Virus record (IMG/VR): IMGVR_UViG_3300031539_000190
Location: 1-31,392 of that record
Reading direction: 5' to 3' (one strand)
Source of the DNA: a virus
Length of the DNA: 31,392 bases
Below are positions 1,379 to 24,480 of this stretch, one piece after another; position 1 is the stretch's first letter; each line of letters starts with the position of its first letter. The notes beneath the pieces are model-generated. The model was not told the origin of the DNA. It saw nothing but the letters and a program-made list of their open reading frames with translations, and searched no databases. A program made the translations under genes and the position numbers.

Positions 1379-3156
1379 TATCCCCCTCGAGACCGCCTTT
1401 TATTCTCCTGTAGAAGGTAAAGCTCTCTTGCTATCCTTCCAACATCTGCTTCCTCTCTAACCACAAGTTGTGAAATGTTAAAGGTGTTCGTTATTGCCCC
1501 TCCACCTATTGGTGAAACAATCGCTGGGGCCGTTACAGGAAGCCCCGTAGGACGCCGCAAGGTTACTTCAGCTCCTATATCTTCCATTGAGGCACGGATG
1601 TCACCGAGTGCATCCTTAACTCCGCTTTCAATACCTTCTGCCAAGCCCTTCGCTATGTCCATACCAGCCTCGATAGCCAGCTTAGACGGACTACCGATCC
1701 CAAAAATGCCTTTGATACCCTTCCAGATGTTCGAAAAGAAACCGGTAATTTTGTCCCATATCCACGTTGCAAGACCCTTAATGCCTTCCCAAAGTCCCAG
1801 GATAATGTCCTTTCCCCACCCGACAGCTATATTCCAGATATTCTTGAAGACATCGACTATCTTGTTCCAGATGTCTTTGACAGCATTAAGAATCCAAGTC
1901 ATGCCTTCCTTGAAAAACCCAGTAATCTTGTCCCAGCCTTCCTTGAAGAAGCCAACGATATTGCCCCATATTTCTTTCAGCTTGTTCCAAAGCTCAAGAG
2001 CCTTTTCCTTGACCCAGTCCCAGTTCTTGACAACAAGAATGATGATAGCAATGAGAGCAGCAATAGCCAGAATAATGAGTCCGATGGGATTTGCAGACAT
2101 GGCAGCATTCCATAACCACTGAGCTGCCGTGACTACCTTAATTGCTATAGCTGAAGCAAGCATAGCTACCTTATGTGCAATCAACGCTGCTGTATGAAGC
2201 CCCCATTTGACAGCTGCGGTTCCAGCAGAGCTACCAAGAAATATCATCAGCGGGCCCATCGCTGTCATACCAGCTAAAAGAGGTTCAAGAGGTTCGAGGA
2301 ATCCACTGGCCTTCAACGTCAGCTCACTCCACCACTGCTTGGCCTTGTCCATAATAGTGAACTGCTTGTTGGCCTCATCACCAAATTCCTTCGCCATACC
2401 GGTAGCACCCTCGAGTCCGCTCTTGTACACTTCCAACTGTTCGCTAGTCATACCAAGAGCTTCTGTTAGTGCGATGCCCTCTTCTTGCGACTTAGTAACC
2501 GCCTTGTTCCATTCCCTGAGCATTACCTTGCCTGGCTCTACACCGTTGTCGGACATATACATCATAGCTGCGGCCATATCGTCTATTGTAAGCCCGGCAT
2601 CCACCATATCCTGTGACGTGTAGCCTACCATGGTATTAAAATCTTCTAAGGATATAGTACTATTCCTTACCATATAGGTCATCATATCGGTTTTGCCAGC
2701 TATTTCTTCTGCCGATAACCTGAACGTTTTCATCGCTGGCACCATTATCTCAGTCACCGCACTAGCACCCATACCAATGGCATCACCGAGTGTATCAAAG
2801 GCTGTGGCCGTAGCCTTCAGGACTTCCTGGTCTTTTATCCCAGCTCTAACCAATAAATCAAAAGTAGCCGTAACTTCCTTAATGGGGAAGGTGACGTTGG
2901 TCGTCGCGAGGGCTAGGTCTCGCATTTCCTTGGTAGTAATGCCAAGACCAAGTGCCGTCACACCTAGGTCGGCATTTATCTTCTTGGTAGATTGGATCAT
3001 GGCCAGGCCGGCAACACCGACCGCAGTGAAGGCGGCGCCCATGATCTTCATGCCCTGCTGGACTTTCTGAACATTGCCCTCAAGCCCAGACAACTGCTCC
3101 TTTGTTTTGTCCAGACCATCGATGGCCACTTTGCCAAATAATTCGAACACGTTCAA
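1378..3156 (-). CDS. Tail tape measure protein
   Basis: 592 aa. The N-terminus has a coiled-coil-like start (LDKTKEQLSGLEGNVQKVQQ) and then the conserved tape-measure/phage minor tail core of about 200 residues rich in Ala, Gly and Met (QVLKATATAFDTLGDA; GYTSQDMVDAGLTIDDMAAA). The middle is hydrophobic with probable membrane-like helices (ANPIGLIILAIAALIAIIIL), followed by repeated Trp-rich segments of the WNKLKEIWGNIVGFFKEGWD kind, then the IGSPSKLAIEAG motif common at tape measure C-termini. It sets tail length; at about 1.5 angstrom per residue this predicts a tail near 90 nm. The likely start is TTG at 3156 with AAGGAG about 9 bases upstream. Confidence 0.92.
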   Translation of the reverse strand: MNVFELFGKVAIDGLDKTKEQLSGLEGNVQKVQQGMKIMGAAFTAVGVAGLAMIQSTKKINADLGVTALGLGITTKEMRDLALATTNVTFPIKEVTATFDLLVRAGIKDQEVLKATATAFDTLGDAIGMGASAVTEIMVPAMKTFRLSAEEIAGKTDMMTYMVRNSTISLEDFNTMVGYTSQDMVDAGLTIDDMAAAMMYMSDNGVEPGKVMLREWNKAVTKSQEEGIALTEALGMTSEQLEVYKSGLEGATGMAKEFGDEANKQFTIMDKAKQWWSELTLKASGFLEPLEPLLAGMTAMGPLMIFLGSSAGTAAVKWGLHTAALIAHKVAMLASAIAIKVVTAAQWLWNAAMSANPIGLIILAIAALIAIIILVVKNWDWVKEKALELWNKLKEIWGNIVGFFKEGWDKITGFFKEGMTWILNAVKDIWNKIVDVFKNIWNIAVGWGKDIILGLWEGIKGLATWIWDKITGFFSNIWKGIKGIFGIGSPSKLAIEAGMDIAKGLAEGIESGVKDALGDIRASMEDIGAEVTLRRPTGLPVTAPAIVSPIGGGAITNTFNISQLVVREEADVGRIARELYLLQENKRRSRGG

Positions 3157-3203
3157 AATAATTTCTCCTTGACTTTACCTACTAAGTTTTGAGCGTCCTG
3201 ATT

Positions 3204-3557
3204 TCATGACTTCTTGACCCTCTTAGCCTTGATGTTCATCCGTGATAGGATTTCGTCCTGTCTTTTTTGAGGTTTAGCAGGCTGAATAGGTTCACCTGGT
3301 AAGTCTGGTAACAAATGCTTCAAGTATTGCCCAAATGTCTTATTGCCACCAGCCCCCATCTGCCAACCTACAAAAGCAGCCAGAGTAAACTTCTCCTCTG
3401 CCTCCTCTCGTCTCACCTCGGACAACAAACTGACTAATTGCGCAAAACGCGAGAACAGGAGGCCGTGAATTATCTCATCAGTCCAACCATATCGAGATTG
3501 AATCAAATCAAAGAGTCCCGCTATGCCCCCTTCCCTACTAGCTGCGAGACTCTTCCG
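3204..3557 (-). CDS. Tail assembly chaperone, frameshifted C-terminal part (lambda T-like)
   Basis: This frame has no convincing start: no ATG or RBS precedes it, only a TTG inside. It is open from the slippery site at 3557-3563 through the stop at 3204 and lies in the -1 frame relative to the upstream chaperone. Read after a -1 slip it continues RKSLAASREGGIAGLFDLIQ and then SRYGWTDEIIHGLLFSRFAQ, giving a fusion of about 219 aa. This is the standard G/GT arrangement just before the tape measure gene in long-tailed phages. The fusion product would recruit tail tube subunits to the tape measure. Confidence 0.8.
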   Translation of the reverse strand, partial: RKSLAASREGGIAGLFDLIQSRYGWTDEIIHGLLFSRFAQLVSLLSEVRREEAEEKFTLAAFVGWQMGAGGNKTFGQYLKHLLPDLPGEPIQPAKPQKRQDEILSRMNIKAKRVKKS

Positions 3558-3862
3558 AAAAAATCCTTAATATCTTCCTGCTCAATCAGCTTCTCAATGA
3601 TGTCTATCACGGTTGATGCTGGCATGGACACAAACTCATCCTTGGTCTTGTCAATCAGATCTGCTAACCATGCCTTCAGGTCTTCTTCAGTCTCGACAAA
3701 CATACTCTGGAAAAGCACCATGCCCAGCTCTGTGGGGTCGGGTTTTTCCTCAGATTTGATTGCTGAGGAAATCTCTTTCCTGGCCCCTTTTGTTGCCTTA
3801 CTCAGCATACGGGCAACCGTAAAGACATCGTTAACAGTCAGTAGCCTAACTTCAATCCCCAT
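3521..3862 (-). CDS. Tail assembly chaperone (lambda G-like)
   Basis: 113 aa, mostly helical and acidic (EEDLKAWLADLIDKTKDEFV; IIEKLIEQEDIKDFFGRVSQ), between the tail tube gene and the tape measure gene. This is the fixed position of the tail assembly chaperone in siphoviruses. The slippery heptamer near its 3' end lets a fraction of ribosomes make the longer GT product. The ATG at 3862 has AAGGAGG upstream. No enzymatic motif; the call rests on position, size and the frameshift signal. Confidence 0.8.
   Translation of the reverse strand: MGIEVRLLTVNDVFTVARMLSKATKGARKEISSAIKSEEKPDPTELGMVLFQSMFVETEEDLKAWLADLIDKTKDEFVSMPASTVIDIIEKLIEQEDIKDFFGRVSQLVGKGA
3557..3563 (-). promoter_or_regulatory. 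-1 programmed ribosomal frameshift slippery site
   Basis: On the minus strand the heptamer is T TTT TTC in the frame of the upstream chaperone (codons GAT TTT TTC), a canonical X XXY YYZ slippery sequence. A slip of -1 leads directly into the long open frame ending at 3204. It lies 34 nt upstream of the zero-frame stop TAG at 3521-3523. Confidence 0.8.
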
Positions 3863-15632: not shown

Positions 15633-15839
15633 CTACTTCCTTAGGCATCTCCCATTAGCATCAAGGTGGACATCCATGGCTTTGCATTGGCCTCTCTGGT
15701 TCCACCCACAGCTGATATTATCACAGGCTAAACTCACCTTCCCAAGTTTGCATCCTCCACCTTCTATACGGTGGGGACACTTCTTTGCGTGGCAGACATA
15801 GCGCCCAGCGATTCTGACTGCTTCGTGGCACTCGGTCAT
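15633..15839 (-). CDS. Cys-rich small protein, DUF1540-like (68 aa)
   Basis: Eight cysteines in 68 residues: YVCHAKKCPHRIEGGGCKLG and then LACDNISCGWNQRGQCKAMD, ending in GRCLRK. The second half resembles the DUF1540 pattern C....C.WN....C.A..I...... Probably metal binding. ATG 15839 overlaps the portal stop (ATGA), so it is translationally coupled to the portal-methyltransferase gene. Function unknown. Confidence 0.75.
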   Translation of the reverse strand: MTECHEAVRIAGRYVCHAKKCPHRIEGGGCKLGKVSLACDNISCGWNQRGQCKAMDVHLDANGRCLRK

Positions 15840-17854
15840 TTCGGTTCTCCTGCTTTCTTGAGTAGCGAAACAATGATAAGGTGTTTCTCTCCAAACTCAT
15901 CAAAGCTTTCCTCTTGTTCAGTGTATATGTCAAGCACGGTGAAGTTCAAACCCTTGACAAGCCCCAAATACCCATCTTCAGTGATGACCTCTTCTCGCTT
16001 GCCATCAGCAAACTGTGTGTCCCCATATATGTACACAAATGCAAGTCCATCCGTCTTTAATACCCTGTTAACTTCAGGCATAGATTTTTGTAGGTCAGTG
16101 GCGTGCAACACAGACAAGGAGAATACGGACTCAAATTGCCCATCGTCGAATGGCAACTTCTCGGCATTAGCCACCTTGAAATCAATCGATACCTCAGCCT
16201 TCTCCGCGTTTTCCTGAGCAAGTTTAATAGCACTAGGAGCCACGTCAATGGCTGTCACATTCAAACCACCTCTAGCAAAGAAGATAGAATCACGGCCATT
16301 ACCACAACCAATTTCGAGTACTGAGGTGTAGAAAGCATAGAGAGATAACTCCTTTCTAAAGTCCTGAGCAAACAGTGACGGCGTTAAATCTATGGCCCAG
16401 TGAGGGGGATCTTCTGAGTATGCCTCTTCCCAGTCCCGGGGCGATAATGCCTTAACGGTCTTCAGCGCCTTCTCAATGGCTTTAATCTCATCATCATAAA
16501 GCGGTTTAATCTTCTTGGTTACTACTCCCCACCAGCCAACACGCCGCAGGTCTATCCGCTTCCAGTGGATTGTTTTCTGCTCTTCAGTTGAAAGGTTGAG
16601 AGCTTTGGTCATCATCTTCTGTGGCTCCGCCGGTGGTACCGAACCAGTCGGCAATAACATCATGGGCAAATAGCCAGTATCCCAGCCGGGGAACTCGCTG
16701 AACCCCATCTCCAATCTCTCGTTTATCTGGTCGAAGGGGACTCCCATGGACCAGAGGTTCTTAGCCTGGTCAACCTTCTTGGTAAAGTCCTCTCTAAGAG
16801 CAACTACCTTTGAAGTATCATAGGAGATTGTGATACTAGGATACATCGGCGCAACCCTGAGACCAAGCGTTGATTTGATGTCATCGAGTAATGGGATAAC
16901 AACATCCTCGTATAGTGCTTTCCTCGCTTCTGCCATGTTGGCATAACTGGAGTGCTCCATATCCCCTAAGAATATCGAGCTAATCCCGAAGGCTCCGGCA
17001 ATGTCACGCTTGTTGGTAAGACGGGACTTGATGAAGTCCATCTCCACCGGGGTCAGGCTCATCTGGTGCCACTTCCCCCCAGCTACCACCCAGGGCATAC
17101 GCCTCTTTACTTTGGCTAAGTAGCGCTCTTGAACCTGTCGGTCTGCTTCCTCATACTGCTCATTTGTTAAAGCATCAGTTTCGAAAACACCATCTGGGAT
17201 GCCCCTGTTCTGCATGCTTATCTTCTGCGTGTCCTGCGCCTCGTTATCAGTGTCGACAGTCCTTGATATCGCTTGAAGAGGCCCAATTCCCCAATAGGGA
17301 TTACCGGGGTTGATCATCATAAAATGGATAAACTGCTCCGGTGGCACGATTTGCTGTCTACCGTCTATACTCGTTACCTCATAGCCTTTGAGCCATTGCC
17401 CCGGCACATCTGATGGGATTGGATGGATAAGGTCCGGCATGCAAACCCAGTATTCCCGGGGTCGGCCCCCTACAATAATCGGCTGAATCAATGCGTTACC
17501 GACTAACAATTGATGAGCAATAATGAGCTCCATATTGTCTTGCCCGGAGAACTGCGGGTTGGGATTTGCCCAGGCCTTGCTGAAGGGATGGTCAAGAATA
17601 ATCTCACCCTCTTTATCAAGAGCTACCCAGGGAATGGCTGAAGCCGCTTGCACAATCACCCTGATGGCACGATAGACATCCCCTGATATTTTATATCCTT
17701 CTCGAACAGCCTTGCGAACTGTTAAGTCAGTATAAATCGGAATGTCAGCGGTCTGCACAGACAGTATTTGATACGGGCCCAAGGAAGTGCCTCTACCATT
17801 TGCCTTTGGGAAAATAGCAGAAGCGACTTTGCTGCGTAATCTATTCATTACCAT
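15836..17854 (-). CDS. Portal protein fused to a class I SAM methyltransferase
   Basis: Start ATG 17854 (MVMNRLRSKVASAIFPKANG) just after the terminase stop; 672 aa in one uninterrupted frame. Residues ~1-410 are an HK97-type portal: SGDVYRAIRVIVQAASAIPW, HFMMINPGNPYWGIGPLQAI, LTNKRDIAGAFGISSIFLGD, and LREDFTKKVDQAKNLWSMGV. Residues ~415-470 are a helical linker (TEEQKTIHWKRIDLRR). Residues ~473-672 are a methyltransferase: motif I VLEIGCGNGRDS at about 512, acidic loop VTAIDVAPSAIKLAQENAEK, motif around KLPFDDGQFESVFSLSVLHA, and VLKTDGLAFVYIYG. No NPPY/SPPY, so the substrate is more likely protein or a small molecule than DNA. Portal proteins usually end near 400-450 aa. Confidence 0.92.
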   Translation of the reverse strand: MVMNRLRSKVASAIFPKANGRGTSLGPYQILSVQTADIPIYTDLTVRKAVREGYKISGDVYRAIRVIVQAASAIPWVALDKEGEIILDHPFSKAWANPNPQFSGQDNMELIIAHQLLVGNALIQPIIVGGRPREYWVCMPDLIHPIPSDVPGQWLKGYEVTSIDGRQQIVPPEQFIHFMMINPGNPYWGIGPLQAISRTVDTDNEAQDTQKISMQNRGIPDGVFETDALTNEQYEEADRQVQERYLAKVKRRMPWVVAGGKWHQMSLTPVEMDFIKSRLTNKRDIAGAFGISSIFLGDMEHSSYANMAEARKALYEDVVIPLLDDIKSTLGLRVAPMYPSITISYDTSKVVALREDFTKKVDQAKNLWSMGVPFDQINERLEMGFSEFPGWDTGYLPMMLLPTGSVPPAEPQKMMTKALNLSTEEQKTIHWKRIDLRRVGWWGVVTKKIKPLYDDEIKAIEKALKTVKALSPRDWEEAYSEDPPHWAIDLTPSLFAQDFRKELSLYAFYTSVLEIGCGNGRDSIFFARGGLNVTAIDVAPSAIKLAQENAEKAEVSIDFKVANAEKLPFDDGQFESVFSLSVLHATDLQKSMPEVNRVLKTDGLAFVYIYGDTQFADGKREEVITEDGYLGLVKGLNFTVLDIYTEQEESFDEFGEKHLIIVSLLKKAGEPK

Positions 17855-17855
17855 T

Positions 17856-19157
17856 TTATCCAAACCTCGTAAGTTTTTCTGGCTTTTCAAGCATTAGCTC
17901 AGTTATCGCCCAGACTAGGGCATCTAGCCGGTCAGGTGATTTGTCCCCTGGTACCCACTCGCACATCTGGTCTTCTAACTCCGAAAAGAATCCGACATGA
18001 TGAACTCTTCCCTGCTCATATAAGGCTGACACCGGCTCGGCCCTGATTGCCTTGCCCCGGCTGGCATGGACTTTCTTGAAAGACACCGACTTATCAATTA
18101 TCCTGATGATGCTCTCGACCATATCCCCGCCGAAGTTCACTTCGCCCACTATCCGGTCAGCCTTGAAGTTATAGTAACCACTCACCGCAGCGGTCGCCCA
18201 CTTCTCAGGAGTTCCGCTCAGTGTCAGGTCGGCCAAGACAAAGGCTTCTTGCCGGTCAGCAACTTGCGCTACGCCGGCAACCACAATCCCTGTCGATGAC
18301 GAGGTATCGCTATCGGTTCCTTGTGGGTCTATGGCCACCACTATTCTTTTCAGCTCAGGATACTTCCGCACCCTCAGCTCATCTATCTTAGCTCGCTCCC
18401 ATAGAGCGTCTGGGTTATCGTCGAGTATCTCACCAGCCAGCTCTTGGCGCCCAAGCCTAGTGCCTTCATACTTCCTCAGTATATAGCGCAAGAAGTCTGG
18501 AGCCAGGTTGTCTTTATTCTCCAGTGTATGCCCTCGAGTAACCGCCGTCCTCTCATCTGCTATTAAGTCCTTGATGACTTTAATGGGCTTCGGCGTGGTG
18601 GTAACAACTGCCTGAGGGTGATTGCCAATCCTCAGACCGAACATCAAGTTATCCCAGGAATCCTTTGGGTATTTGAACTTGGCCAGCTCATCTACCCACG
18701 CCTTCTGATGCTGCGGTCCCCTGAGCTGCTCTGGCTCATCCCCGGAATAGATTATGCCCAGCACTCCGTTCGGCCATATCAGCCGTCTCTTCGATGGTTC
18801 GTATTCTGGCATGAACCAGGGGGGGCTGATATTGAGTATAGCCGAGTCGCCGACCTCAACCATGGTGTCCCGGACGTCGGCCTTAGTCTGCCCTACCAGT
18901 GCTATCGGGCTAAATCCTTCCCTCGCCCACTTATTGATTAGCTCGGCGCCAGCCCGTGTCTTCCCACCGCCTCGACCTGATAAAAGAAGCCAGATATACC
19001 AGTCCCAATCGGGAGGGAGCTGCTTAGGTCTAGCCCAGAATTCCCAGTCATATAGGAGAGATTCAGCTTCCTTGTTCGTCAGGCTCTTGAGTGTCTTCTG
19101 CCTCTCCTGTTCTGGCAGCAAGGCGATTGATTGCGCTAATGAGTTTTTGTTTGACAT
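17856..19157 (-). CDS. Terminase large subunit (TerL)
   Basis: 433 aa from ATG 19157. Near the N-terminus KEAESLLYDWEFWARPKQLP leads into Walker A LLLSGRGGGKTRAGAEL (about residues 58-74), then Walker B-like KAWVDELAKF and the coupling motif VVTTTPKP. The RNase H-like nuclease has VVAIDPQGTDSDTSSSTG with its first Asp, FVLADLTLSGTPEKW with the second, and SPDRLDALVWAITEL with the third. It cuts and pumps DNA into the procapsid through the portal. The gene begins inside the small subunit gene; the ~95-nt overlap is larger than usual, but the N-terminal part is conserved in the family, so the start looks right. Confidence 0.95.
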   Translation of the reverse strand: MSNKNSLAQSIALLPEQERQKTLKSLTNKEAESLLYDWEFWARPKQLPPDWDWYIWLLLSGRGGGKTRAGAELINKWAREGFSPIALVGQTKADVRDTMVEVGDSAILNISPPWFMPEYEPSKRRLIWPNGVLGIIYSGDEPEQLRGPQHQKAWVDELAKFKYPKDSWDNLMFGLRIGNHPQAVVTTTPKPIKVIKDLIADERTAVTRGHTLENKDNLAPDFLRYILRKYEGTRLGRQELAGEILDDNPDALWERAKIDELRVRKYPELKRIVVAIDPQGTDSDTSSSTGIVVAGVAQVADRQEAFVLADLTLSGTPEKWATAAVSGYYNFKADRIVGEVNFGGDMVESIIRIIDKSVSFKKVHASRGKAIRAEPVSALYEQGRVHHVGFFSELEDQMCEWVPGDKSPDRLDALVWAITELMLEKPEKLTRFG

Positions 19158-22243: not shown

Positions 22244-22767
22244 TCAACGCTCCTAAACTTCCTTGTGAACATCGCCGAGATTTCTATGGTGGGGACAATA
22301 ATCAATATCGCCACCAATATCTGGCCTATGGTGCTTGTGGTCTATACAAAGTGGCAAATCACATGTTCTTCCTTCCCCAATGGGTGCATCACAACGAAAA
22401 TCAGCAGCTTGCCCACAAAAAGCACAGGCAATAATACCTGACCCACACATAATGATTGGTTTGCTTTGCGATTTTGGTTTCATTTTGCGGTAGAAGAACG
22501 GCATAGGGAAACCTAGCAAGAGTGATACTTCAAACTGCGTCAAAAAGTCTACTGGTTTCATTTGCCTTTTGGCTTCTAACAAGGCTGGTATCTTCCTGTA
22601 TAACTTTTCTATTGTCATACCCCTAGCCTCCGCACCCAACTCAGCCATTTCGATATTAAAATGCTTTATTGATTTGCCTATAGACTTCCCGAAAACATAT
22701 GCACAACCCATAATTTAACTCCTTTCCCACTTGTCTTGATAATAGGGTTTATTCAATCAACGCTCCT
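22240..22767. repeat. 15-bp direct repeat flanking the zinc-domain gene
   Basis: TCAATCAACGCTCCT occurs at 22240-22254 and 22753-22767. The copies lie just outside the 152-aa gene between them. One copy encodes the last residues of the NinG-like protein (GALIE), the other overlaps the start of the 70-aa gene. May mark an insertion or be chance. Confidence 0.4.
22253..22711 (-). CDS. Hypothetical protein with C-terminal zinc domain (152 aa)
   Basis: ATG 22711 follows AAAGGAG. Residues 1-85 are helical (SIGKSIKHFNIEMAELGAEA; TIEKLYRKIPALLEAKRQM). Residues ~96-147 form a Cys/His-rich domain: CAFCGQAADFRCDAPIGEGR, TCDLPLCIDHKHH, DYCPHHRN. This C..C.......CD....... .C....C..H pattern is a small zinc-binding module seen in phage proteins of unknown role. 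A nucleic-acid or protein contact role is possible. Confidence 0.7.
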   Translation of the reverse strand: MGCAYVFGKSIGKSIKHFNIEMAELGAEARGMTIEKLYRKIPALLEAKRQMKPVDFLTQFEVSLLLGFPMPFFYRKMKPKSQSKPIIMCGSGIIACAFCGQAADFRCDAPIGEGRTCDLPLCIDHKHHRPDIGGDIDYCPHHRNLGDVHKEV

Positions 22768-23156
22768 GCTGTCTCCTGCTTTAATAGCTCCTTCAAAATA
22801 ATCATATCTAGCTTATCGTCTCTTTTCTTATAGGTATGCGCCCGAACATCAAGTAAATCAAAGCCTTTATCGCCAAGTTTCTTTCTCATATAAGCTGTGT
22901 ATTCATTCCGCCCATCTCCGTGACCCCAGCCAAATTTATGGTGATACCAGCAAAGTGAGTCGCAATTCTCAGGATCAAACCTCGTATTTTCATGTCCTCT
23001 GCCCCAATAATGGCTACAATGCAAACCTCGTTTGTTTTCAGAATAATCCTTACTCCCATTCTCCAAATCACAGGCTATACACCGCCAGCCATCTTTAGTC
23101 CTGATATAAATGGAGAATAGCTTATCTGTTTTCCTTTCTTTGGCCTTGAACATCAT
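22749..23156 (-). CDS. ninG: NinG/Rap-like recombination protein
   Basis: Start chosen at ATG 23156 (or the next ATG), which has GGAG upstream inside the methyltransferase gene; 135 aa. Pattern: TKDGWRCIACDLENGSKDYS, then GLHCSHYWGRGHENTRFDPE, NCDSLCWYHHKFGWGH. The C..C, HCSH, GRGH..TRFDP.NC...C..HH series matches lambda NinG (Rap), a Holliday-structure-specific nuclease of phage recombination. In lambda, ninG also lies between replication genes and Q, as here. A role as a general HNH-like nuclease is an alternative. Confidence 0.8.
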   Translation of the reverse strand: MMFKAKERKTDKLFSIYIRTKDGWRCIACDLENGSKDYSENKRGLHCSHYWGRGHENTRFDPENCDSLCWYHHKFGWGHGDGRNEYTAYMRKKLGDKGFDLLDVRAHTYKKRDDKLDMIILKELLKQETAGALIE

Positions 23157-24480
23157 ATCTCCATAACTTCTTGAACACCAAAATATCTTCCTTGTCCAGT
23201 ACCGGCGCATCGGGATACTTCTGTTGGTAAATAGTCCGCCAGAAGGATTGGCTTGTGAGTTTCCGATAATGCCTTTCAATAAACTGGAATCCAGCTTGCT
23301 CACATAGTTTTATCGTGTCGAGGTCAAGCCGGACCTCCTGTTTTTCCCTGATAAAGTTCTTAGTAACGAGAATCATTAAGCCCTGGGGTTTCAACACACG
23401 CCAGCACCCTTGATAGACCTCTAGCATAGCGGAGAGGTAGGATTCACCTTTGAGGTTGCCTATGTTTCCAGGAGCTGTGCCATAACCAGCTTCTAATCCC
23501 TGCCAAGCTATATTCCCTTTGCTGAAATAAACATCATCTCTTTGCCCTAGTTTTTGACCTGCTTGTATTTTCCGTCTTTTGTTTTCACCGTCATATTTCA
23601 TCGGTGTTTCATACGGCGGGCTTGTAATTACACAGTCTATGTTGCCATAGGGAAGATTGCCTAGATTGTCCATAGATTCTGAATAAGCAACAAGCGGAGG
23701 TCTATACTTGTCAGGATGCCGTTCCTTATGGCGTTGTTCTCTATCAAATGTAGCTTTGGGTCTATTGTTGTCAGAGACGCCCCATTGAGAGGCATAAGGC
23801 GGCGAGGTCATAATGACATCGGCTAACTTACCGTAAGGGAGATTGCCGATATTGGAGGGATTATCAGGATTATAGTCGGCTTCGTGTTGATGCCAATTAT
23901 CCGCTATCTCAATTCTATCAGCTATGTCATTATGTCCAGAGGCTCGCAATCTTTTCACTCTATTTTTACCGCCATCTTGGTCCGCCATTAGTGTCTCAGC
24001 ATAAGGTGGAGATGAAATCACTACATCAGCCAATGCCTGTCTATATCCCATCCTTTGGGGGTCGCCATCATTAACCGCCACATCGGATAAACGATTGCCA
24101 TATGGCGGAGAACTGATTATTGCGTCAGCTAACACATCAGGTAACTTTCTAGCATCGCCTTGCATGATTGTCGCCGTTCCCATCTCGTAGCCCATTTCAG
24201 GGCCAAGAGTTTGAATCTTAGTCCAGTTATCCTCCTGCATCTGGACAAACTTGGACTCCAGCTCAACCAAGATAATATGTCTCCCCATTGTGCAGGCTAT
24301 GAGTAGCGTTCCCTGGCCGGCCATGGGGTCGAGTATCACGTCCCCGGGCCGGGAATACCTCTCTATAATCCAGCGCTGCAAGGGCAGCATCATCTTAGCA
24401 GGGTGAGCGAATGAGCCAGCACTAAAGTATCTGTCTCTGTGCTTCTTGTCCGCTTTGAAAGTTATCTCTTGGGGTTTCAT
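23122..24480 (-). CDS. DNA methyltransferase (N4/N6 type) with four SPPY motifs
   Basis: 452 aa. Residues ~25-80 hold the SAM-binding end: HPAKMMLPLQRWIIERYSRP, VILDPMAGQGTLLIA (motif I at 51-60) and HIILVELESKF. The catalytic motif IV appears four times: SPPY at 124-127, 157-160, 226-229 and 287-290, each preceded by ADVIITS-like residues; two are introduced by IGNLPYG or LGNLPYG. The C-terminal part has CWRVLKPQGLMILVTKNFIR. One SPPY is the rule for these amino-methyltransferases. Likely modifies phage or host DNA, for example against restriction; target unknown. No restriction partner nearby. Confidence 0.9.
   Translation of the reverse strand: MKPQEITFKADKKHRDRYFSAGSFAHPAKMMLPLQRWIIERYSRPGDVILDPMAGQGTLLIACTMGRHIILVELESKFVQMQEDNWTKIQTLGPEMGYEMGTATIMQGDARKLPDVLADAIISSPPYGNRLSDVAVNDGDPQRMGYRQALADVVISSPPYAETLMADQDGGKNRVKRLRASGHNDIADRIEIADNWHQHEADYNPDNPSNIGNLPYGKLADVIMTSPPYASQWGVSDNNRPKATFDREQRHKERHPDKYRPPLVAYSESMDNLGNLPYGNIDCVITSPPYETPMKYDGENKRRKIQAGQKLGQRDDVYFSKGNIAWQGLEAGYGTAPGNIGNLKGESYLSAMLEVYQGCWRVLKPQGLMILVTKNFIREKQEVRLDLDTIKLCEQAGFQFIERHYRKLTSQSFWRTIYQQKYPDAPVLDKEDILVFKKLWRYDVQGQRKENR

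Follow-up and report, generated by a model that had tools for sequence, protein, structure and literature searches.

A phage amino-methyltransferase family with exchanged strand-and-loop cassettes, most likely multispecific

Known systems and the viral setting of P0001

The multispecific m5C enzymes of temperate Bacillus phages (SPR, phi3T, rho11, SP-beta and H2) are cytosine-C5 methyltransferases with one catalytic motif, in which Pro-Cys is the C5 hallmark, and separate recognition domains. Several target-recognition units stand in a row on one catalytic body, giving protection against several restriction systems. A 2025 review describes Bacillus phages as arraying multiple target recognition domains (TRDs) in one polypeptide (PMC12707154). 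The phage protein described here, P0001, is likewise one chain with one catalytic body, and we infer that its units may be arrayed to a similar end. It differs in being an amino-methyltransferase with its own catalytic motif and strand in every cassette. P0001 contains no PC dipeptide, and no C5 methylase profile is among its listed profile matches. P0001 would work like the multi-TRD m5C enzymes without being a member of them.

A second form of modular specificity is found in Type I HsdS subunits and Type IIG enzymes. One Helicobacter pylori study describes, under the name DOMO, how repeat-flanked recognition segments shift position and how their number falls or rises (PMC3077401). The units that move there are recognition domains of the specificity subunit or part, whereas the exchanged unit of the family described below includes the active-site strand. 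P0001 has no separate specificity subunit or S part with two TRDs joined by conserved repeats.

In chemistry, P0001 resembles the N6_N4_Mtase/UPF0020 enzymes (e.g. TTHA0409, CcrM and the bdelloid N4CMT), which share its motif I, PP(Y/F) chemistry and Rossmann core; these carry one motif IV only. Most DNA-methylase chains matched by P0001 have the half that bears motif I placed towards their C-terminus; in P0001 it is N-terminal. In overall fold, the tRNA methyltransferases Trm11, Trm14 and TrmN come closest to the model of a single-cassette relative. An N-terminal THUMP domain is defining for Trm11-type enzymes, and the tRNA enzymes carry a single motif IV. No THUMP domain appears among the Pfam matches of P0001 up to E 0.1, and only 23 residues precede motif X. 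A full-text search, whose coverage leaves out most subscription journals, found no literature on methyltransferases with repeated SPPY.

The window, that is the whole stretch of DNA analysed, is 31,392 bases long and makes up the entire virus record. It carries genes for terminase, portal, prohead protease, major head, tape measure and integrase; the virus is therefore a tailed phage, and probably a temperate one. Genes for a NinG-like endonuclease, a DUF5131 protein and a DnaB_2 replication protein adjoin the P0001 gene. No neighbouring gene was recognised as coding for a restriction enzyme, and P0001 is probably an orphan phage methyltransferase. Read from its first GTG, the NinG-like HNH ORF (window 22749-23303, minus strand) shares positions 23122-23303 with the 3' end of the methyltransferase gene; for that reason the actual start of the HNH ORF probably lies further downstream. 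Elsewhere in the window, an ORF at 15836-17890 (minus strand) joins Phage_portal (residues 71-384) to a C-terminal class I SAM methyltransferase (Methyltransf_11, E 1e-21, residues 525-618), an unusual fusion.

Cassette anatomy and copy number

P0001 matches the Pfam families N6_N4_Mtase (PF01555, 'DNA methylase'; 65 bits, cut-off 26.7) and UPF0020 (43.5 bits, cut-off 22.3), and contains both a SAM motif and the catalytic [SDN]PP[YFW] motif (Table 1). A sequence-only reading of the gene had pointed to four SPPY motifs and one motif I, and both counts hold. The SPPY copies start at residues 124, 157, 226 and 287, as that reading had placed them, in the contexts ADAIISSPPY, ADVVISSPPY, ADVIMTSPPY and IDCVITSPPY; two follow NIGNLPYG or NLGNLPYG, and LDPMAGQGT occurs once. 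The cassettes are set into the methyltransferase core, with motif III on one side and the C-core on the other. SPPY has been described as common to most bacterial N4C enzymes (PMC8885841), and for this reason m4C is the first guess for the product; the motif suggests N4-cytosine as the target, with N6-adenine as the second candidate. In N4CMT, replacing SPPY by APPA did away with activity (PMC8885841).

Table 1. Layout of the P0001 gene, in window positions
Feature	Residues	Positions	Strand	Remarks
Multi-SPPY amino-methyltransferase gene, protein P0001 (452 aa)		23122..24480	-	ATG-to-stop ORF
N-core: motif X, single motif I, motif III region (GDARKL)	1-117	24130..24480	-	
Motif X-like FAHPAKM, one copy	24-30	24391..24411	-	Sequence; (nearly) invariant in most family-alignment columns
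Motif I LDPMAGQGT, sole SAM-binding motif	50-58	24307..24333	-	Sequence and family alignment
Cassette 1	118-150	24031..24129	-	SPPY at 24100-24111
Cassette 2	151-219	23824..24030	-	SPPY at 24001-24012
Cassette 2/3 junction, NIGNLPYGKLADVIMTSPPYA (62 nt)		23792..23853	-	92% identical to L001; flanking cassettes unaligned
Cassette 3	220-280	23641..23823	-	SPPY at 23794-23805
Cassette 3/4 junction, DNLGNLPYGNIDCVITSPPYE (60 nt)		23609..23668	-	95% identical to L001
Cassette 4	281-338	23467..23640	-	SPPY at 23611-23622
C-core: NIGNLKGESYL helix, LKPQG, LMILVTKNF strand, C-terminal strands	339-452	23125..23466	-	

Relatives were gathered by scans of viral contigs (with P0001, alignments and the linker pattern) and by one scan of genome contigs. 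An ORF was counted as a family member if it matched both an N-core profile (E <1e-5) and a C-core profile (E <1e-3). Six of the 51 ORFs passing were dropped: the window itself (L005), a cut copy of L011b (L078), a frameshifted copy of L014 (L015), a near copy of L118 (L116), and two ORFs with no SPP motif between the cores (L034 and L040). The final family comprises 45 distinct ORFs, including P0001, with 130 copies of motif IV.

All members, P0001 among them, show one plan: shared N-core and C-core, with at least one strand-SPP[YFW]-variable cassette between them. The sequence-only reading had proposed aligning homologues for variation in copy number, and the number does vary, from one to seven: eight ORFs have one cassette, 12 have two, 10 have three, 11 have four, one has five, two have six and one (L112) has seven. 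At least two SPP[YFWH]-type motifs are thus present in 37 of the 45. As a control, ORFs outside the family that lie in the fetched loci and have both motif I and [SDN]PP[YFW] were counted: 43 of 43 carried the latter exactly once. These loci had been fetched with family queries, and the sample is therefore not a random one of methyltransferases. Because every control ORF is single-motif and most family members are not, the multiplicity of SPPY in the family is more than chance. The N6_N4_Mtase match recurs in all 18 members scanned, at E 0.001 or better.

Each cassette has the pattern x-D-x-(V/I)-(V/I/L)-(T/S)-SPP(Y/F/W), followed by a variable part that in most cases is 23-60 residues long; many cassettes then end in a linker of the NIGNLPYG kind. 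NIGNL-like linkers occupy 56 of 86 interior junctions, and the last cassette continues into NIGNLKGESYL, the helix start of the C-core. Gly and charged residues are abundant in the cassettes. The motif takes the forms SPPY (107), SPPF (17), SPPW (3), SPPH (2) and SPSY (1), so that it is canonical SPP[YFW] in 127 of 130 cassettes; one of the three exceptions is a relative of P0001 cassette 1 (second cassette of L012, SPPH). The beta4-like strand and the motif are equally conserved in first, middle and last cassettes. The suggestion that extra copies are inactive decoys fits poorly with this conservation of motif and strand at all positions, and decoys are disfavoured for that reason.

Some members depart from the common form. 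L111, L113, L115 and L118-L121 constitute a subfamily of viral relatives with one cassette each, which may resemble the ancestral form. Another member, whose frame overruns the contig ends (L060 12766-14670 and L067 1-387, both plus strand), has about 200 inserted residues separating its last cassette from the C-core, and part of an additional cassette follows the C-terminal core. An intron in the L060 insertion was considered and found no match in Rfam.

Exchange of cassettes between proteins

Variable parts were compared by Smith-Waterman alignment in all 8256 pairs, using the 129 of 130 parts that reach 15 residues, with linkers trimmed and a score of at least 48 counted as a match. Matches number 86, where 20 shuffles led one to expect a mean of 0.6, and 69 of the 129 cassettes, spread over 34 proteins, have a partner. 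Not one of the 163 within-protein pairs reaches the score of 48. Position is often not kept: counted from the N-terminus, the index differs in 62 of the 86 matching pairs and is the same in 24; in 43 pairs it differs whichever end is taken. An earlier list of 64 pairs (stricter cut-off; 131 cassettes, one of them a false SPSY in L025) has 35 pairs in which the likeness of the cassettes exceeds that of the cores; among the 17 pairs with cores less than 50% identical, this holds for 15.

The cassettes of P0001 take part in this sharing. The type of cassette 1 recurs in L082 (first), L084 (first) and L012 (second, with SPPH), and that of cassette 4 in L011 (second), L019 (first), L070 (first) and L082 (second). 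For cassettes 2 and 3, the pairwise comparison of 129 cassettes gave no partner. The segments after the four SPPY motifs are mutually unrelated, and no direct DNA repeat of at least 14 bases occurs inside the gene. The idea of a repeatedly duplicated catalytic loop, put forward from the sequence, is not borne out, alike pairs being absent within proteins; as judged from these comparisons, the variable parts are exchanged, not duplicated.

Three pairs of near relatives serve as natural comparisons. The cores of P0001 are 90% identical in protein to those of its nearest relative, L001, and 86% to those of L002, and no cassette is shared with either. In blastn of the window against L001, only the N-core (86% over 24125-24469), the C-core (86% over 23171-23472) and the two junctions of Table 1 align within the gene. 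These junctions encode linker, strand and SPPY and are at least as conserved as the cores, with a weak excess (binomial tails 0.12 and 0.02). In the second pair, L108 and L109, the DNA of the two cores is identical along most of its length, yet the array of L109 includes a fifth cassette, its cassette 2 is longer, and the DNA around the cassette insertion has diverged. On the contig of virus L011, two enzymes (L011 and L011b; 600-1577 and 2483-3571, plus strand) lie about 0.9 kb apart, with 95% core protein identity, 85-91% core DNA identity, one junction at 87% and zero aligned cassettes; as proteins, too, the two have disjoint sets of cassettes. At the level of these alignments, the three pairs show whole-cassette replacement and gain at conserved junctions.

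Cassettes are swapped, moved and gained whole while keeping their motif, which accords well with two ideas of the sequence-only reading: that the extra copies may form alternative target-recognition loops, and that one SAM site may serve several specificities.

Proposed working and rival explanations

P0001 is likely a phage DNA amino-methyltransferase made multispecific by its cassettes, each supplying a catalytic strand and a recognition loop and docking in turn. For the family as a whole, the balance favours a 'revolver': one cofactor-binding body with one to seven interchangeable strand-and-loop cassettes, each docking in turn for its own DNA target. Such an enzyme would be for m4C/m6A what the multispecific Bacillus-phage enzymes are for m5C, and the part that is modular and passes horizontally would be the active-site segment itself. 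The N-core (motifs X and I-III) and the C-core (the helix and strands after the recognition region) would form a SAM-binding Rossmann body without its fourth strand. Every cassette would contribute this missing strand together with the catalytic SPPY loop and a segment of its own, some 23-50 residues long, for reading a DNA sequence. Because there is one SAM motif and several strand-and-loop units exchanged whole, the cassette would be the specificity part, and only one would complete the active site at once; the others would loop out via NIGNLPYG-like linkers. One P0001 molecule could in this way address up to four target sequences. Arrays would be altered by recombination at the conserved linker-strand-SPPY junctions, importing whole cassettes from other viruses. 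The likely advantage to the phage would be self-methylation against several restriction systems, and a rapidly renewed cassette array is what selection for such a gain would be expected to produce.

Several observations weigh against this reading: the structure predictions given next, the three non-canonical motifs, the 24 matching pairs that keep one N-terminal index, and the lack of partners for cassettes 2 and 3 of P0001. The AlphaFold model of P0001 (18-sequence alignment) has a mean pLDDT of 58 with both cores mostly confident. Strand 116-123, leading to SPPY1, fills the strand position, and most of residues 125-346, cassettes 2-4 included, fall below pLDDT 50. The single-cassette relative L113 (260 aa) is modelled with pLDDT 85 and pTM 0.84, the variable part after SPPY being partly below 50; in fold this model comes closest to TrmN, Trm14 and Trm11 (Z 18.8-19.8, rmsd 1.9-2.9, 169-178 aligned residues). 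The models show one complete methyltransferase body per chain with flexible cassettes, and neither demonstrate nor exclude turn-taking. The sequence-only reading had named, as a finding against it, models with a single SPPY near SAM and the others in loops lacking a pattern across homologues. The first half agrees with the prediction, which places SPPY1 only; the second half is false, for the modular family is strongly patterned across homologues and, by its sequences, most likely multispecific.

A different use of the same architecture is unlikely but deserves the first place among the rivals: only one cassette, probably the first or last, beside a core half, would be used, and the rest would be a silent reservoir for recombination, giving one specificity at a time. 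The placement of SPPY1 alone in the model would suit this, as would the partial cassette after the C-core on the L060/L067 contig and the whole-cassette difference between L108 and L109. However, silent in-frame copies should decay, whereas 127 of 130 cassettes, wherever they stand in the array, retain the canonical motif; silent cassettes also need not remain in an open frame, and P0001 offers no internal DNA repeats of 14 bases or more to drive rearrangement.

Extra cassettes might instead be accessory surfaces under diversifying selection, either non-specific DNA clamps or decoys binding host restriction or anti-phage proteins. Rapid cassette replacement suits any arms race, and the cassettes are Gly- and charge-rich and mostly of low confidence in the model. 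This explanation is rather improbable: it leaves unexplained the hydrophobic strand and SPP[YFW] kept in each cassette, and in the single-cassette relatives the variable segment comes after the sole catalytic motif.

The substrate might also be RNA or another non-DNA target, with cassettes reading different RNA sites, as the fold neighbours TrmN, Trm14 and Trm11 and the UPF0020 match could imply. The 'DNA methylase' family N6_N4_Mtase is, however, the better Pfam match and is found in 18 of 18 scanned members, no THUMP domain was matched, the PDB entry that matches best in sequence is TTHA0409, a putative DNA modification methylase, and the passage cited above gives SPPY as common to most bacterial N4C enzymes (PMC8885841). 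A non-DNA target is accordingly given very little weight. Ordinary tandem duplication within one gene, without functional meaning, has the four motif copies in one chain in its favour and is ruled out as the sole explanation by 0 of 163 alike pairs within proteins, against 86 matches between proteins, and by the lack of an internal DNA repeat.

Under the preferred reading of cassettes as alternately docking specificity parts, one protein probably marks several DNA sequences and dodges several host defences. One small viral enzyme would then hold several methylation specificities and renew them through the exchange of cassettes some 30-70 residues long, which would amount to programmable DNA methylation in a compact, natural form. 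The structural question would be how a Rossmann sheet takes alternative copies of one of its own strands. L108/L109, L011/L011b and P0001/L001 are natural pairs for assigning cassettes to DNA motifs. The cassettes could supply the parts for building methyltransferases with a chosen specificity, and could reveal which restriction systems a virus meets.

Occurrence beyond this virus

Family members come mainly from uncultivated viruses. Among 50,697 phage records and 72,556 plasmid records, no place covered 80% of P0001; the seven-cassette L112 as query found four phage records, at 12-14% coverage. In searches with parts of family proteins, a piece of L084 gave general methylase matches only and one 38-residue cassette gave no match, although queries this short may fail for their length, and a viral-contig scan with P0001 cassettes 1-3 alone returned two loci, both on contigs already known. 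A SPPYGNRMAD-like motif of actinobacterial methylases occurred as a DNA pattern in 0 of 149 genomes, which leaves the supposed likeness of P0001 cassette 1 to a known monospecific enzyme unconfirmed.

The family also extends to cellular genome collections. One member (L027) lies on a 3.5-kb contig binned as Bathyarchaeota, and a genome of the same phylum encodes a four-SPPY protein (L182) with a cassette like one of those of L110 (score 57). In the phylum of genome G001, four of 349 genomes match, two of them multi-SPPY; in that of G002, two of 398 match at E 1e-15, both proteins being single-SPPY. The cellular single-SPPY relatives L183, L187 and L188 have a short segment between SPPY and a DLGN/DLGT-like motif.
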